This document shows, piece by piece, positions 3,106-22,349 of a stretch of DNA of 24,416 nucleotides (positions are counted from its first letter, which is position 1; each line of letters begins with the position of its first letter). The stretch covers positions 1 through 24,416 of the IMG/VR virus record IMGVR_UViG_3300050015_000138; one strand, 5' to 3'. The translations under genes were made by a program, and so were the position numbers. Source of the DNA: a virus. The notes below the pieces were generated by a model, which saw nothing but the letters and a program-made list of their open reading frames with translations, did no database searches and was not told the origin of the DNA.

Positions 3106-3154
3106 ATCTTAACTTGCTTATTGTTCCTTGTCAAACCTTGTCAGGTGTGGATAA
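3106..3154 (-). promoter_or_regulatory. Promoter P2 with consensus DnaA box and phased direct repeat
   Basis: On the minus strand: a perfect DnaA-box consensus TTATCCACA (3154-3146), CTGACAAG (3144-3137), TTGACA (3134-3129), a 17-bp spacer and TAAGAT (3111-3106). The two TGACAAG copies start 10 bp apart. Predicted transcription starts at about 3099, the first base of the HTH gene. The last codons and stop of the HNH gene at 3131 are formed by these repeats. Confidence 0.8.
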
Positions 3155-3784
3155 CTTACGATTGCGGTATGTTGGAGTTTTTTCGTGGCAATCGTGACAT
3201 AAAGTTCTACCGTTGCTTACTACAAATCTTAGTTCCGGATAATCGCTCCACTTTTTGATATGGTCTGGTTCCAGTCCTTTGCCTTTATAATTGCATTCTA
3301 CGCAGGTGTAATTGTCTCTTGCAAAAACTGACCGGCGCCATTCCTTATATTTTATTGAGCTTCGGTCGCTCTGATTGCTTTTGCTTATTCCGCCTTTCCA
3401 GTTCCAGTGCTTTTCTCCTCGTTGTGCGATGGATGATTTTAAACAGGCTGCTCGGTCTCTTTTTCTGCCTTTTAATGGGCTTGGTCCAGTCCTCGGTTTT
3501 CTTGGTAATCGGTTTATTGCTGTACAAAGGCATTTTTTGGAACAGTATTTTGATTTGGCACTAAAAACTCCGGCGTATGATCTGACCTTTAGTGTCTCTC
3601 TGTATGGCATCTTCTTTCCACATTCCAGGCAATTTTTAAATCCTGTAATCGGTTTTTTAAAAGATGCATACTGGCACTTCCGACTACAGAATTCTTTTCT
3701 CCAGTGGCTTCGTTTTGGGTCTCCGCTCCATTGTTGGAATTCTTCTGTGCACTGTTTGCATTTAATTTTTGGGATATGCTTCAT
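3131..3784 (-). CDS. HNH homing-type endonuclease with N-terminal zinc fingers
   Basis: From the preferred start MKHIPKIKC the protein has 217 residues. The N-terminal half has Cys pairs typical of small zinc ribbons (IKCKQC with FCSRKC, CLECGKKM with YCSKKC). It continues with the HWNWKGGISK element common to phage HNH proteins, and then the nuclease: YKEWRRSVFARDNYTCVEC, LEPDHIKKWSDYPELRF, SNGRTLCHDCH. The Asp-His of PDHI and the last His give the metal and catalytic site. It nicks or cuts DNA, probably to promote its own spread. The start lies inside the end of the upstream SLT gene (22-nt overlap), which suggests coupled translation. A start at 3826 is possible but adds a weaker N-terminus and a longer overlap. 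Its 3' end overlaps promoter P2. Confidence 0.9.
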   Translation of the reverse strand: MKHIPKIKCKQCTEEFQQWSGDPKRSHWRKEFCSRKCQYASFKKPITGFKNCLECGKKMPYRETLKVRSYAGVFSAKSKYCSKKCLCTAINRLPRKPRTGPSPLKGRKRDRAACLKSSIAQRGEKHWNWKGGISKSNQSDRSSIKYKEWRRSVFARDNYTCVECNYKGKGLEPDHIKKWSDYPELRFVVSNGRTLCHDCHEKTPTYRNRKLSTPDKV

Positions 3785-4256
3785 TAATTTTATGATAGCA
3801 CACCTGCCATCGGTTTTGTAGTCCATCTGTCAGCATCTTTCCGGCTATTGCTTCCTGCAATCCTACGTCATGAATAATTTTTAATGCATCTGTGATTGTT
3901 GTTTCAGCATTTAAAAATCCGTATTTCTTTCCAAATGCCATGAATGTATCCATTTGAAATTGCAAAATTCCGTAGCTATATTCGGAGTTGCTATCAAAAA
4001 TTGTAATTTCTGCATGTCCTCCGCTCTCGCATGCCTCTAATTTATCAATCCACGCTCGTTGTAGTGGGGTGTATTGCTGCGATATAGGATTGGGTTGCTG
4101 TTCGGTTGCTGTTTTACTTACCGATGCGACCTTGGGTTGGTTTTGCGCTCCTTGGGCGATTTCTATGAGCTTTGGCACCATCCCTGTTCTAAAAATGGCG
4201 ATTGCAGTTATAATTGTGCAGGCGCAAACGATGCTTTTTTTACTTGATATAATCAT
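3762..4256 (-). CDS. Membrane-anchored SLT-like lysozyme / lytic transglycosylase
   Basis: A 164-residue protein. Residues 8-23 (SIVCACTIITAIAIFR) form a signal anchor, followed by a Gln/Pro/Ser linker. The C-terminal domain has the lysozyme-fold signature LEACESGG, with the likely catalytic Glu77, and SYGILQFQMDTFMAFGKK (94-111), the counterpart of the SxG(L/I)xQF motif of SLT enzymes. QVCYHKINEAYP near the end is the last helix. It would cleave peptidoglycan outside the membrane. It is in the early-type operon, apart from the GH19 endolysin at 7.5-8.0 kb, so a role in modifying the wall of an infected cell, entry or superinfection exclusion is as likely as lysis. An extended -10 lies 51 nt upstream of its start. 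Confidence 0.8.
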   Translation of the reverse strand: MIISSKKSIVCACTIITAIAIFRTGMVPKLIEIAQGAQNQPKVASVSKTATEQQPNPISQQYTPLQRAWIDKLEACESGGHAEITIFDSNSEYSYGILQFQMDTFMAFGKKYGFLNAETTITDALKIIHDVGLQEAIAGKMLTDGLQNRWQVCYHKINEAYPKN

Positions 4257-4545: not shown

Positions 4546-5142
4546 TTAATACTGGCGGACTGGCCGGACATAGTTGATATTGTAGCGGTCGTAGCCGTAG
4601 GTGACGCCACCGCTGAAGCCGACAACCCAGGCGTAGTCCGTGGGGTAGTAGGCGTACGGGGTGCTTGTCCAGTAACCTGCCGGCTCGCATTTAAAAATTG
4701 GGTTAATCGCCGGGTTATATTTTGTGTCATCCACCAGTGTCAGCAATTCTTCTCTTGTCGGCAGTCTCCAGTCGTTCCATTCTTCTCGGTTTAATTCCGC
4801 CACGAATTCCTCGGCTTTGGCGTATGTCAGTCTTTCCTGGCTTCCTTGCTTCTGCCACATTAATCTCTTGCCGTTTGGCATGACTCTTGTGTCGCTTATG
4901 GTTCCGTCTCCATTGTCTATAAATCTTTCTGCGGTTTCTTCCTTTGGTTTCTCCATCTGCTTTTTAACTCCCAATAAATCAATCAACTTGTCCATTCTCT
5001 TTATGATTGCGGTGCCGGTTGTGAATTTTCCGTTGGATCCGCAGTTTTCGCATTGCACTCCTTTTAGCATTGGTGCTCCACAGCATGACGAGTACTTTCC
5101 TTTTTCCTCTTTTATGCCTAATTTTTTAGTTATTTTTTTCAT
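4546..5142 (-). CDS. DUF1566 (Lcl-type) protein with zinc ribbon, DGR-type variable C-terminus (VR1)
   Basis: From MKKITKKLGIKEEKGKY the protein has 198 residues. The ATG at 5142 overlaps the TGA of the upstream HNH gene (ATGA), which decides this start over one at 5184. The N-terminus has a zinc ribbon (CCGAPMLKG with CENCG). Then comes a DUF1566/Fib_succ_major-type lectin fold: FIDNGDGTISDTRVMP, LMWQKQG, NDWRLPTREELLTLVD, NPAINPIF and YWTSTPYA through YVRPVRQY. The last 42 residues are the variable region, nearly identical in DNA to the end of the gene at 21417-22349 except at DGR-style positions. Such domains display diversified ligand-binding surfaces. It lies in an early operon with no tail genes, so it may be a cytoplasmic or exported binder and not a virion adhesin. 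Confidence 0.88.
   Translation of the reverse strand: MKKITKKLGIKEEKGKYSSCCGAPMLKGVQCENCGSNGKFTTGTAIIKRMDKLIDLLGVKKQMEKPKEETAERFIDNGDGTISDTRVMPNGKRLMWQKQGSQERLTYAKAEEFVAELNREEWNDWRLPTREELLTLVDDTKYNPAINPIFKCEPAGYWTSTPYAYYPTDYAWVVGFSGGVTYGYDRYNINYVRPVRQY
4549..4674 (-). repeat. DGR variable region VR1 (paired with 21420-21545)
   Basis: These 126 bases encode YWTSTPYA through the C-terminal YVRPVRQY. Compared codon by codon with VR2, 13 of 42 codons differ, with 17 base changes. None is at a third position and none is synonymous. Every changed position can be an A in a common template (AAC or AAT codons). The upstream edge is abrupt at TACTGG. Weaker similarity (20 of 27 bases) continues past the stop codon. 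Confidence 0.88.
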
Positions 5143-5771
5143 GGTTTTAATTTTTGATGAATTTTTAAATGGCAACTCCTGCAAAGAGTAATGCCGTTAC
5201 TAACTTCGAACCTCGACTCAGGATAATCAGCAAAAGATTTTATATGGTGTGCTACTATCTCCATCGCCTGGCATTTTTGGTGGCACTCTATGCATCTCCA
5301 TCCATCCCTTTCATAAACCTCTGATCTCCAATTTTTGTATTTATCAGTTCTTCTTATCAAATCGTGCTCGTGCGTCACGCCACCTTTCCATTTTCCGTTT
5401 TGGTCTCCAATGTTTTTAAATAATCTTTTTCCAAGATGCGACTGGCGTATTTTCTCTCTTGTCTGTTTGGATGTTTTGTGACCCATTAAAGATTCTCCTA
5501 TTTTCTTTTTATGTTCTTCGGATAATTTAGAACCAGGTTTAAATCCAAACCCTTGATACACTCCCTTTTTGAATTCAGTTTTTGGAGAAGTGCGTTTACC
5601 TTTATGTGCCAAGCTCAACTTTTTCTTTGTTTCTTCTGATAATGGTTTTCCCAATCTTCTTTCTCTTACCAGTCTTTTTTGCTTTTCGGATGCTGGATGG
5701 CTTTTACCAATATGCGATAAGCTTAGATTTCTTCTGTGCTCTTTTGTGATTTTATATCCTTTTTTTGTCAT
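5139..5771 (-). CDS. HNH endonuclease with NUMOD3-type DNA-binding repeats
   Basis: A 210-residue very basic protein. The first 125 residues carry several NUMOD3-like repeats, the short DNA-binding modules of homing endonucleases: LSEETKKKLSLAHKGKR, LSEEHKKKIGESLMGHK, SKQTREKIRQSHLGKR. NGKWKGGV and YKNWRSEVYERDGWRCIEC lead into the HNH core IVAHHIKSFADYPESRF and SNGITLCRSCHLKIHQ. The His-His pair and the final His are intact, so it is probably active. Its TGA overlaps the ATG of the VR1 gene, meaning it sits tightly inside the early operon. Homing endonucleases often neighbour the sequence they spread with. This one borders one DGR target gene, while an HNH remnant borders the other. Confidence 0.92.
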   Translation of the reverse strand: MTKKGYKITKEHRRNLSLSHIGKSHPASEKQKRLVRERRLGKPLSEETKKKLSLAHKGKRTSPKTEFKKGVYQGFGFKPGSKLSEEHKKKIGESLMGHKTSKQTREKIRQSHLGKRLFKNIGDQNGKWKGGVTHEHDLIRRTDKYKNWRSEVYERDGWRCIECHQKCQAMEIVAHHIKSFADYPESRFEVSNGITLCRSCHLKIHQKLKP

Positions 5772-9568: not shown

Positions 9569-9790
9569 TTATTCTTTTGTTAAGTCTTGATTTTCTCCTA
9601 GTGGCAAGTTATACAAGTCCTCCCTGCTGTTGATTGCCACGGTTACGCCGTCGACGGTGACGCTTTTTATATCGTGTTCTTGACCCAACTCATTTAAGAG
9701 TCGGTAAATAAAAACATTGACGCTGGCTGGTGCTACCGCTTCTTCGTCTACGTCAATGGTGAATGCTATGCGTTTTGTTTGTACTGCCAT
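9569..9790 (-). CDS. Small hypothetical tail-region protein
   Basis: A 73-residue protein (MAVQTKRIAFTIDVDEEAVA..., ending NLPLGENQDLTKE) that looks like a compact alpha/beta domain. Its ATG shares one base with the TAA stop of the HNH gene (TAATG), which indicates coupled translation. It ends 4 nt before the fibre gene start, so it may be a fibre accessory or chaperone. No family is recognised. Confidence 0.6.
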   Translation of the reverse strand: MAVQTKRIAFTIDVDEEAVAPASVNVFIYRLLNELGQEHDIKSVTVDGVTVAINSREDLYNLPLGENQDLTKE

Positions 9791-10395
9791 TAATATTTAA
9801 TTATGTTTGTTTGTTTTCTGCTGTTGCAACTTCGGCAAAGTGGCTGAATGTTTTCGATGTTGTTTGAGCCTCCTTTCGCAATCGGAATGATGTGGTCTTC
9901 TGTCAGCACGATTTCTGGCTCTCCCCTATGGCAACATGGACACGTCATGTTGTACTGCATTTTTAGATTTTCCCAATCTGCAAATGTATGACTCCCTCCA
10001 ACTCCTCTTTGTCTTAATGCTCTTAATCGATTGTTGTGTAATCTGTTTTTGTATCCGCCTTTCCAGTTATGGTGTTTCGGACCTGTTCGGTTCGGTCGCT
10101 TTGTTCCTTTGCCACCCTCGGTTCCGTTAGCTCTTGCCGATGCATGGGCTTTTGCTCTTTGTTCTGTTGTAAATTGATGATGGTTTTCTGTAAAATCTTG
10201 ATGTCCTGGCTGGAATCCGAATACTTTGCCTTTTTTATAATTTTCCTTTTGACTATCGCTCATCTTTTTAATTGCACTCTCTGTCGGTCTTACACATTGA
10301 TGCGAACAGAATTTTACATTTTCCCACGCTTTTTTAGAATGTGTAGGTTTTTTTATAATTTCCGTTCCGCATGTTTTGCAATTTTTTGACAACAT
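9790..10395 (-). CDS. HNH endonuclease (free-standing, His-Asn-His type)
   Basis: A 201-residue basic protein. The N-terminus has a zinc ribbon (NCKTCGTEI with FCSHQC), then a basic linker with KHHNWKGGYKNR. The catalytic half differs from the other HNH genes here and is the classic form: CPCCHRGEP, LTEDHIIPIAKGGSNNIENI, QPLCRSCNSRK. All key residues (Asp-His, Asn, two CxxC knuckles) are present, so it is probably active. It is wedged between two small tail genes and shares a base with the start of the downstream gene, an insertion without disruption. Confidence 0.93.
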   Translation of the reverse strand: MLSKNCKTCGTEIIKKPTHSKKAWENVKFCSHQCVRPTESAIKKMSDSQKENYKKGKVFGFQPGHQDFTENHHQFTTEQRAKAHASARANGTEGGKGTKRPNRTGPKHHNWKGGYKNRLHNNRLRALRQRGVGGSHTFADWENLKMQYNMTCPCCHRGEPEIVLTEDHIIPIAKGGSNNIENIQPLCRSCNSRKQTNIIKY

Positions 10396-18190: not shown

Positions 18191-18219
18191 TTGATAGTGA
18201 TAAGCAATTAGTGTATAAT
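18191..18219 (+). promoter_or_regulatory. Plus-strand sigma70 promoter of the HNH gene, possibly leaderless
   Basis: TTGATA (18191-18196), exactly 17 bp, then a perfect TATAAT (18214-18219). Transcription would start near 18226, which is the A of the HNH start codon. It differs from the shared minus-strand promoters in lacking the TGACAAG repeats and the DnaA-like box, so the HNH gene carries its own control. Confidence 0.75.
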
Positions 18220-18225
18220 TATGGT

Positions 18226-18783
18226 ATGAATAGGATTAAGCGTGGTAAATTCTTTCCTTGTTTTAATTGTAGCACACCTGTGTGGGTTTTTCCGTCCCGA
18301 TTTAATATAAAATATCACTCCTGCTCTACAAAATGCCAGTCTGTTGCTAAGAAAATCTATCAGAAAGAGGCTGCTTTGCCTCAGGTTAAAAAGGTAAAAG
18401 TCAAATGTTTGGTCTGCAAAAAGGACATTTTGGTGCATGGTTATCGTAAAAAAACTGCTAAATTCTGTAATCTGATATGCAGGGGTAGATATTTTAATGG
18501 TGATAGGTCTCCTCAGTGGCGCGGTGGTGTCACTCCCAAAAATATCATCATCCGTAATTCTTTTAAAATGAAACAGTGGCGTGCAGATGTTTTTAAAAGA
18601 GATGACTTCACGTGCGTTCTATGCGGTAAGCATGGTGATAGACTGAACGCTGACCATATTAAGCCTTTCTCTCGATTCCCTGACCTGCGTTTTGATGTCA
18701 GCAATGGCCGCACTCTTTGCGTTCCATGCCATAGAAAAACTGAAACTTGGGGCGGTAAATCTAAAATCTTTGTCGCATTGTAA
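18226..18783 (+). CDS. HNH homing-type endonuclease, the only well-supported plus-strand gene
   Basis: From MNRIKRGKFFPC it has 185 residues. The frame also opens with GTG at 18211, but that lies inside the promoter, so ATG 18226 is preferred. Zinc knuckles come first (PCFNCSTPV with CSTKC; CLVCKKDI with FCNLIC). Then SPQWRGGVTPKN and the nuclease MKQWRADVFKRDDFTCVLCG, LNADHIKPFSRFPDLRFDV and SNGRTLCVPCHRK. Catalytic residues are intact. It is closest in layout to the HNH gene at 3131-3784. Its last 23 bases overlap the end of the convergent connector gene, so it inserted in reverse orientation between two structural genes and was kept without harming either. Confidence 0.92.
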   Translation: MNRIKRGKFFPCFNCSTPVWVFPSRFNIKYHSCSTKCQSVAKKIYQKEAALPQVKKVKVKCLVCKKDILVHGYRKKTAKFCNLICRGRYFNGDRSPQWRGGVTPKNIIIRNSFKMKQWRADVFKRDDFTCVLCGKHGDRLNADHIKPFSRFPDLRFDVSNGRTLCVPCHRKTETWGGKSKIFVAL

Positions 18784-20649: not shown

Positions 20650-21039
20650 TTATGCATTTATTGCTCCAGTAAATTCTGGCAATGTCTTTAAAAAGTCATA
20701 CCCCTGGTCAAAGACATTCTTTGTGCTCGTCAGGTCGTATGCGAATTTATAGATACCTTTGAATCCTACAATTCTGCTGTCGGGTCCGCCGTTCATTTCC
20801 TCGTCCATTGGGATGGCTCCGGCAATTTGTCTCGTAGCATTGTCTTTCCAATAATTAATTTTCAATATTGCCTGCCTTGTGTTCGGTGCGTCTGTGGATT
20901 TTTTGGGCTCAATGAACACATTAAAATTAATGTAATTCCCGGCGTTACCATCCTTACTTGTGAAGTTGTGATTTAGTGCCAAATTGGGTTCATCTGACCT
21001 CCGCCAACTTTTCAAAAGTTGGTATAAGTCTTTGCTCAT
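20650..21039 (-). CDS. Hypothetical 129-residue protein
   Basis: MSKDLYQLLKSWRRSDEPNL, then NYINFNVFIEPKKSTDAPNT, RQAILKINYWKDNATRQIAG, PDSRIVGFKGIYKFAYDLTS and a helical end (QGYDFLKTLPEFTGAINA). It looks like a globular alpha/beta protein with no membrane segment. The start overlaps the 3' end of the HNH remnant by 50 nt. This is where the reverse transcriptase and template of an intact DGR cassette might have been expected, but the protein has no reverse transcriptase motif. Confidence 0.6.
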   Translation of the reverse strand: MSKDLYQLLKSWRRSDEPNLALNHNFTSKDGNAGNYINFNVFIEPKKSTDAPNTRQAILKINYWKDNATRQIAGAIPMDEEMNGGPDSRIVGFKGIYKFAYDLTSTKNVFDQGYDFLKTLPEFTGAINA

Positions 21040-21331
21040 CCACTCTCTTACGAGGGTGATGTGCGTGGCATAATGTTATACCATTTTTAATTTTATACCT
21101 TGCTTCTGGGTAATCATGCCAAGATAAAATGTGATGTGCCACAATCTTACCCTTGCAATTTTTATCGTTGATTTTGCATTTATTTTTATCTCTGTTAAAA
21201 ACTCCATTTCGCCATTGTTTATATTCAGGATTATTTCTTTCAGTCCAGTATTGTTTTATCTGTTTTCTGTCTTTAATCCTCCGAGCGAATATTTGTACTG
21301 CTTTGCGAATTTCGGCACTCGGATATGGAAT
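20990..21331 (-). pseudogene. HNH endonuclease remnant without a start, spliced onto the Avd-like gene
   Basis: An open frame of 113 codons with a complete HNH core: EYKQWRNGVFNRDKNKCKIN, GKIVAHHILSWHDYPEARY and NGITLCHAHHPRKR. It has no ATG, GTG or TTG before the core and lacks the zinc-finger or NUMOD N-terminus of the other HNH genes here. Its 5' end overlaps the Avd-like frame, which it meets one frame back (-1). The simplest reading is a truncated HNH gene fused by insertion or deletion into the Avd gene. An alternative is expression by a -1 frameshift, but no good slip site is seen in the overlap (21256-21331). Confidence 0.65.
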
Positions 21332-21387
21332 TCACGCAGGATGCTGAATGCTTTATTGTAAAGTGGTAGGTGTTCGTAATGTGCCAT
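21256..21387 (-). pseudogene. avd: Avd-like DGR accessory gene, truncated to 43 residues
   Basis: Begins MAHYEHLPLYNKAFSILREF and continues PKFAKQYKYSLGGLK before TAA. The '(H)YxxLPLYxKAFxxL' start and 'YKYSLG' segment resemble the first helices of Avd / four-helix-bundle proteins of DGRs, which normally run to about 110-130 residues. Only about a third is left, and HNH sequence replaces the rest. Avd binds the DGR reverse transcriptase and template RNA. Its place, 30 nt after a gene ending in a variable region, is the standard target-avd order and supports the assignment. Truncated, it is probably non-functional. Confidence 0.65.
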
Positions 21388-21416
21388 AAAATTCGTTTAA
21401 TATCCAAATATCTAAA

Positions 21417-22349
21417 TTAATACTGGCGGACTGGCCGGACATAGCCGTTACCGTTGCGGTAGTTGCTGTAGGTGACGCCATCGCCGAAGTTGACAACCCA
21501 GGCGTAGTACGTGCGGTAGCCGGCGTACGGGGTGCTTGTCCAGTAATAATTATCTGTTCTTATATTCGGGAACATCGCTGCATTAATTGCCGGGCTGACT
21601 TGGCTGTAATCCACTAAGCTCAAAAGTTCTGTTATGTTCGGCAAATACCAGTCGCTCTTTCCTGCTTTTGTTAATGCTTTACATGCTTCTGTTGCTCCAT
21701 TATTTGCACCTCCTGAATCAGCGTTATCGCACGGCATTTGGCTTGGTACTAAATTGCCAGATCCATCGTCTGCTCCCCAAATACTCTTTGACCAGTAACT
21801 TGGATTTGTTGTGCGGTCAAAGTCAAACAATGACCCCACATCTGTTGCAACCTGAGTCCACGAACCTCCATTTGTTATATCTTCTGCAATCGTTCCGAGC
21901 AATGGCGCATTAGACGTTTCGTTTGCTCCGCATTGATAATATGTGCCATCTCCTGCAGCATCTAATACTACATCTCCACTGCTATAGCTTATTGCGTTTG
22001 CAAAGCTCGGAGGATTTATGCTTGTGTGTGCTACTAAACAAATCCATGCCGAGTAATCGCTGGCTTTGTCTGCAATGTCTCCAGCTAAATATGATGTGTT
22101 TGCTGCCCACAATCCTTTTGCCACTCCGATGTTGCTTGCATTTAATCCATCAGGAATTAAAAGCTCGGGTTGTTTTATCCATTGCCTATTCGTCACTCTG
22201 TCGGTTATCGTGTTGTCTCCGTTATCAATAAATCGTGGCAAGATTGGACTTCCTGCTTGAATATCTCCATCATCTCCACCACCTGTGACATATGATGTAC
22301 TCCACCCTGTTTTTGGTAATTGACATTTATCTGTTCTTGTTGATGGCAT
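21417..22349 (-). CDS. DUF1566 (Lcl-type) virion-region protein with DGR variable C-terminus (VR2)
   Basis: A 310-residue protein. FIDNGDNTITDRVTNRQWIK (about 40-59) opens the DUF1566 fold. An insert follows with two carbohydrate-binding-like repeats (GLWAANTSYLAGDIADKASD with WICLVAHTS; ISYSSGDVVLDAAGDGTYYQ with GSWTQVA), similar to small chitin-binding modules. The fold resumes with GKSDWYLPNITELLSLVDY, SPAINAAMFPN and the variable segment YWTSTPYA...YVRPVRQY. In DGR phages such lectin-fold ends bind receptors. Located among head-side and fibre-like genes, this is probably a displayed binding protein, while the VR1 copy is in the early operon. No reverse transcriptase or template repeat is nearby. 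Confidence 0.88.
   Translation of the reverse strand: MPSTRTDKCQLPKTGWSTSYVTGGGDDGDIQAGSPILPRFIDNGDNTITDRVTNRQWIKQPELLIPDGLNASNIGVAKGLWAANTSYLAGDIADKASDYSAWICLVAHTSINPPSFANAISYSSGDVVLDAAGDGTYYQCGANETSNAPLLGTIAEDITNGGSWTQVATDVGSLFDFDRTTNPSYWSKSIWGADDGSGNLVPSQMPCDNADSGGANNGATEACKALTKAGKSDWYLPNITELLSLVDYSQVSPAINAAMFPNIRTDNYYWTSTPYAGYRTYYAWVVNFGDGVTYSNYRNGNGYVRPVRQY
21420..21545 (-). repeat. DGR variable region VR2 (paired with 4549-4674)
   Basis: 126 bases that match VR1 except for 17 substitutions in 13 codons, all at first or second positions. Codon pairs (VR1/VR2) include AAC/GGC, ATC/AAC, AAT/GGT, TAC/AAC, GAC/TAC, GGC/AGC and CCC/CGC. The unchanged 3' part encoding YVRPVRQY would be the homing end. 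Similarity continues weakly for about 27 nt beyond the stop. Confidence 0.88.

Follow-up and report, generated by a model that had tools for sequence, protein, structure and literature searches.

Phage DGRs with two targets are known, for example in Tentaclin phages (PMC10743442), and RT-centred surveys of fragmented assemblies miss targets that do not adjoin an RT (PMC8144416). Free-standing homing-endonuclease genes (HEGs) have been described in phages (PMC2988022), and Skunavirus genomes often contain truncated HNH remnants (PMC12724721). The DNA analysed here, hereafter the window, is the whole of a linear fragment of 24,416 nt, positions 1-24,416 of a single IMG/VR record (IMGVR_UViG_3300050015_000138). 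It resembles the phage DGRs with two targets (PMC10743442) and those with remote targets (PMC8144416) in having one TR backbone in two targets, one of which is remote, but the core is lost and both VRs are stranded. Compared with the DGRs of two related phages, L001/G001 and L003/G003, which have the BPP-1-type order target-avd-TR-RT, it has in common the flanking genes, an Lcl_C target, the beginning of Avd, an IMH-like VR end and variation at TR adenines, as well as a remote second target in the case of G003, whereas its avd gene is cut after codon 37 and both TR and RT are absent. Likewise, its HNH fragment lies between two phage genes, as do the free-standing NUMOD3-HNH homing endonucleases (L048 and others), and truncated remnants of such genes are frequent in phages, but it is devoid of its 5' part, is fused out of frame to avd and is found at the start codon of the next gene, with a TTG instead of an ATG.

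Organization of the locus and its intact relatives

On the minus strand of the window, the order of the genes is the following: an Lcl_C/DUF1566 target gene with VR2 (target 2), codons 1-37 of avd, the final ~91 codons of an HNH gene, which lie in the -1 frame, and a gene annotated as a 129-aa ORF (the '129' gene) (Table 1). A predicted Lcl_C/DUF1566 domain with the VR at the C-terminus, as in C-type-lectin-like DGR target proteins, is present in both targets (PF07603), which are separated by 16.9 kb. Homologues of target 2 share 77% identity over residues 1-293 (L015/G004) and 50% identity (L001), and a homologue of target 1 in G002 is 54% identical. Four further apparently intact HNH genes are encoded in the window (3131-3826, 5139-5771, 9790-10395 (-), 18211-18783 (+)), and one of these four is located directly upstream of target 1, with a stop/start overlap (ATGA).

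Table 1. Coordinates of the DGR-related features of the window
Feature	Coordinates	Strand	Description	Evidence
Target 1 (remote)	4546..5184	-	Second Lcl_C protein; likely start ATG 5142	PF07603, E 1e-24
VR1	4552..4659	-	Register and backbone as VR2	
'129' gene	20650..20982	-	Follows RT in relatives; likely start TTG 20982-20980	
HNH endonuclease remnant	20990..21277	-	HNH core and natural C-terminus	phrog_119, E 1e-8
avd/HNH junction (probable deletion)	21274..21280	-	Possible 2-3-base overlap (GG/GGA)	Both protein alignments stop at 21277; nucleotide alignments
avd remnant	21277..21387	-	Codons 1-37 of the Avd gene	73-78% identity to L001 and L003 Avd residues 1-37
Target 2	21417..22349	-	310-aa protein, C-terminal Lcl_C (DUF1566); adjoins the former DGR core	PF07603, E 5e-26
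VR2	21423..21530	-	108 bases used in statistics; ends in IMH-like GTCCGGCCAGTCCGCCAG	

Three relatives, namely L001 (G001, 27.8 kb; IMGVR_UViG_3300036886_000511), L002 (G002) and L003 (G003, 38 kb), were found by a scan with the VR end. The reading of this DNA from its sequence alone (the sequence-only reading) had proposed to examine whether the DUF1566 gene and the 129-aa gene flank an intact avd-TR-RT in related phages, and such loci do exist in L001/G001 and G003. Indeed (i) L001 displays the order tail gene, Lcl_C target, Avd (118 aa), TR, RT and '129' gene homologue, (ii) G003 carries target-Avd-TR-RT at one contig end and the 3' end of the RT with a '129' homologue at the other, and (iii) in L046 the 3' end of the RT is followed by the '129' gene. 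The '129' gene homologues in L046 and L001 were found by two-sequence alignment, and the RT profile matches both G001 and G003. In L001, the RT gene (at about 3560) shows a 35-nt deletion and a frameshift after the YVDD motif; L046, which is nearly identical there, has an open frame, and the frameshift of L001 is either due to the assembly or another case of an inactivated DGR. Since the same two genes flank an intact avd-TR-RT in L001/G001 and G003, the core was lost in the window, where everything between avd codon 37 and the '129' gene, about 1.6 kb by L001, is missing and 0.3 kb of HNH DNA is found instead. The loss or displacement of a DGR core in an HNH event, as had been put forward from the sequence alone, is thus supported by the relatives that keep the core, with the refinement that the HNH gene probably did not land in avd. 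Identical avd and HNH frames, conserved in close relatives with no link to DGRs, had been named as an observation that would speak against this reading; no such avd-HNH arrangement was found in relatives, in scans that possibly did not cover near-identical records.

The avd and HNH remnants and the start of the '129' gene

The Avd-like ORF (21387-21256, minus strand) begins 30 nt past the stop of target 2, as the sequence-only reading had described. The latter extended the Avd similarity to about 43 residues; it actually ends at residue 37, and the 43-codon ORF is composed of 37 avd codons plus six that come from out-of-frame HNH DNA. Full-length Avds of related phages align to 21387-21277 (residues 1-37) with an E-value of 1e-16, and the intact loci of these syntenic relatives are collinear, so a chance similarity was rejected. 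The concern that Avd might find no match in profile searches was dispelled by the intact relative L001, whose Avd matches PF22296 (bAvd) above the cut-off (E 3e-12), the Avd of L003 being just under it (39.3 vs 40 bits). Taken alone, the 43-aa remnant gives a weak collinear match to the PHROG Avd (E 0.25) and none to Pfam, and no Avd match to the remnant was found in the phage collection. Only residues 1-37 of about 118 thus remain in the window. Of the 28 differences between the avd remnant and L003, 17 are at third positions, and this mostly third-position divergence fits a recent loss of the core.

The Avd and HNH similarities meet at base 21277, which places the breakpoint within about 3 nt. 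No canonical slippery heptamer was seen by eye at the junction, and the idea that programmed -1 frameshifting links the avd and HNH frames was not retained. The HNH part had been read as a start-less core in the -1 frame, and this was confirmed: the segment 21277-21005 aligns to codons 71-161 of a 166-aa HNH protein (67%, E 5e-40). The HNH core motif and the natural C-terminus are kept; the start codon has been lost together with the NUMOD3 part, which took up the ~70 codons at the 5' end of the gene. This NUMOD3 N-terminal DNA-binding part and the start are present in the full-length relative L048, the closest HNH homologue (67% identical in the HNH core), in which AATTTGGCACTAA occurs after the stop as in the window. 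The HNH homologues are mostly 150-250 aa long, and the N-terminal NUMOD3 part was detected in both of those tested (one just under the Pfam cut-off).

After the stop of the HNH fragment, the sequence reads ACCCAAT and then TTG GCA CTA. This TTG aligns with the ATG start of the '129' gene homologues of L001 and G003, and the part of the 129-aa ORF (20650-21039, from ATG 21039) that lies upstream is HNH DNA read in another frame. Start codons behind HNH genes were surveyed at 80 loci (L066-L145), scoring next ORFs with an in-frame TTG, and neither ATG nor GTG, between -8 and +12 relative to the HNH stop, the other gene pairs within the same loci serving as control. The next ORF was found to start with TTG after 35 of 63 genes of this HNH family, as against 5 of 234 control gene pairs (p 6e-23). 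At one of these loci (L141), the homologue of the next gene has an ATG at the same residue in two annotated phages (L148, L149) that have no HNH gene directly upstream. This NUMOD3-HNH family tends to sit exactly at the start codons of next genes and may be a start-codon-targeted homing element; no paper on an HNH family at TTG starts of next genes was found. Since the family tends to sit at start codons, the HNH gene of the window can be placed downstream of the RT before the deletion. An insertion of the HNH gene into avd is less likely than a deletion because the 3' end of the fragment coincides with the start codon of the next gene and its 5' end lies inside the HNH gene. The HNH gene as a normal DGR accessory was likewise rejected: it is absent from every intact avd-TR-RT examined here, and papers with both terms do not describe it as such in their titles and abstracts.

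Variable repeats and missing core

The absence of a template repeat or RT following the Avd-like gene, noted in the sequence-only reading, extends to the whole record. Indeed, no PF00078 match was obtained in the 24.4 kb of this incomplete record, in which tblastn with the L003 RT gave nothing significant, and the 18-base VR/IMH core was found at two places only, VR1 and VR2, even with up to 3 mismatches allowed, TR queries matching only the VRs significantly.

In the relatives, mismatches between TR and VR are restricted to adenine sites (19/34 A sites vs 0/74 others in L001; 15/38 vs 0/70 in L003). VR1 and VR2 differ from each other at 17 of 108 positions, 15 of which are columns where the TR of L001 has an A (p 2e-7, L001's TR serving as reference since the window has no TR of its own), and all of which are at codon positions 1-2 (17/72 vs 0/36 at third positions, p 6e-4). 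The two differences outside the A columns of the relatives' TRs are both located in the 5' part of the VR, where these TRs differ from each other, and the window's own TR may have had an A at these two columns. The locus is a decayed DGR, that is to say a DGR by descent, in which three defining features (RT, TR and intact Avd) are missing, the variable repeats vary at template adenines as judged with L001's TR, and relatives have the ancestral cassette order at the same site. Three contigs of related phages, G002 (L039), G005 (L044) and G004 (L041), break off within VR2 or at the first of its variable codons, which is what a hypervariable VR would lead one to expect; in the window, the contig runs through both VRs.

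VR1 and VR2 share the backbone GCCTGGGTTGTC..CTTC....TGGCGTCACC, and their 3' end is identical to the TRs of relatives over GTCCGGCCAGTCCGCCAG. The TR of L001 differs from each of the two VRs at 10 non-A positions and thus did not write them. The backbone common to VR1 and VR2 differs from that of VR2 in G004, so one TR rewrote both VRs recently, after the two phages diverged; the core was therefore either lost recently or is supplied in trans.

Origin of the remnant and alternative explanations

The locus is most likely a phage DGR remnant produced by the entry of an HNH gene at the start of the '129' gene, followed by a deletion of ~1.8 kb that probably left the targets frozen. In brief, the ancestral row would have been target 2-avd-TR-RT-'129', with a second target about 17 kb away, and the TR would have been copied by the error-prone RT with Avd, the mutated copies taking the place of the VRs in both targets, which are surface-protein genes. 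Then, immediately downstream of the RT, the start codon of the '129' gene would have received a NUMOD3-HNH homing-endonuclease gene and been left as TTG. Some 1.8 kb (1.58 kb as measured on L001, and about 0.2 kb from the HNH gene) would have been deleted later, so that avd codon 37 abuts HNH codon ~71 and the 3' part of avd, the TR, the RT and the 5' part of the HNH gene are missing. We infer this order of the two events and a single deletion; no intermediate was found in which an HNH gene separates the '129' gene from an intact RT. Since TR, RT and most of Avd are gone, the phage has no means of its own to rewrite the targets. The ends and open frames of VR1 and VR2 are intact, so the target proteins are probably still produced in the form that they had last, and the two variable genes are kept, probably frozen at their last state.

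A non-autonomous DGR 'client', in which both VRs would still be rewritten by the RT, Avd and TR of a co-infecting or resident relative, is unlikely. The identity of the VR 3' end with the TRs of relatives, the intact IMH-like ends and the lack of third-position drift between VR1 and VR2, expected with very recent or ongoing homing, are compatible with it. However, in an 18-mer scan of IMG/VR (which may have left out near-identical records) no TR with the window backbone was found, the only TRs being those of L001 and L003, and the two 20-mer matches in prokaryote genomes (Reinekea and an Eremiobacterota MAG), considered as a host TR, have no VR/TR-like sequence around them. L146 was also rejected as a source of TR, as it has no VR-like context. 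A target possibly still open to diversification in trans, an idea raised from the sequence alone, is conceivable in principle, but nothing found here supports it.

It is quite improbable that avd-TR-RT moved or was duplicated to an unassembled part of the genome, the DGR being active in cis. The record is incomplete and the VR backbones are identical, as such a core would allow, but L001, L003/G003 and L046 have the core, or its RT end, at the very position where it is missing here. In addition, the closest relative found (G004: exonuclease 89%, RecT 85%, target 2 77%), whose identity with the window is 67-89% at the overlap in the early genes and 54-85% at the other overlap, covers the interval absent from the window, although it is itself a fragment, as is G002. 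No RT was found by profile in G004, which makes a displaced RT unlikely.

An assembly chimera, in which the assembler joined avd and HNH fragments of two phages, is very unlikely: the window is a single record and the region appears hard to assemble, the VR contigs of relatives (G002, G004, G005) ending in or at VR2, but the sequence is collinear with relatives on either side of the junction, which lies at a distance from the repeat, and the HNH fragment ends exactly at the start of the next gene, as its family does. Finally, a new functional gene made of avd codons 1-37 and the HNH part, expressed by frameshifting or from an internal GTG at 21142, would be consistent with the kept HNH core residues, the open avd frame and the AAGGG upstream of this GTG, but is highly improbable given an HNH part without N-terminal NUMOD3 part and start, an Avd of 37 out of about 118 residues and no relative found with this arrangement.

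Regarding the phage DGR remnant, no paper on a DGR cut out in this way was found in a limited literature search. The relatives with an intact two-target DGR and the phage studied here, with its core excised and both targets kept, form a 'before and after' pair, and stranded targets of this kind escape RT-centred surveys. This locus clearly exemplifies how a homing-endonuclease gene can take part in the loss of a retroelement, and it offers a natural test of the fate of receptor-type proteins once hypermutation stops.
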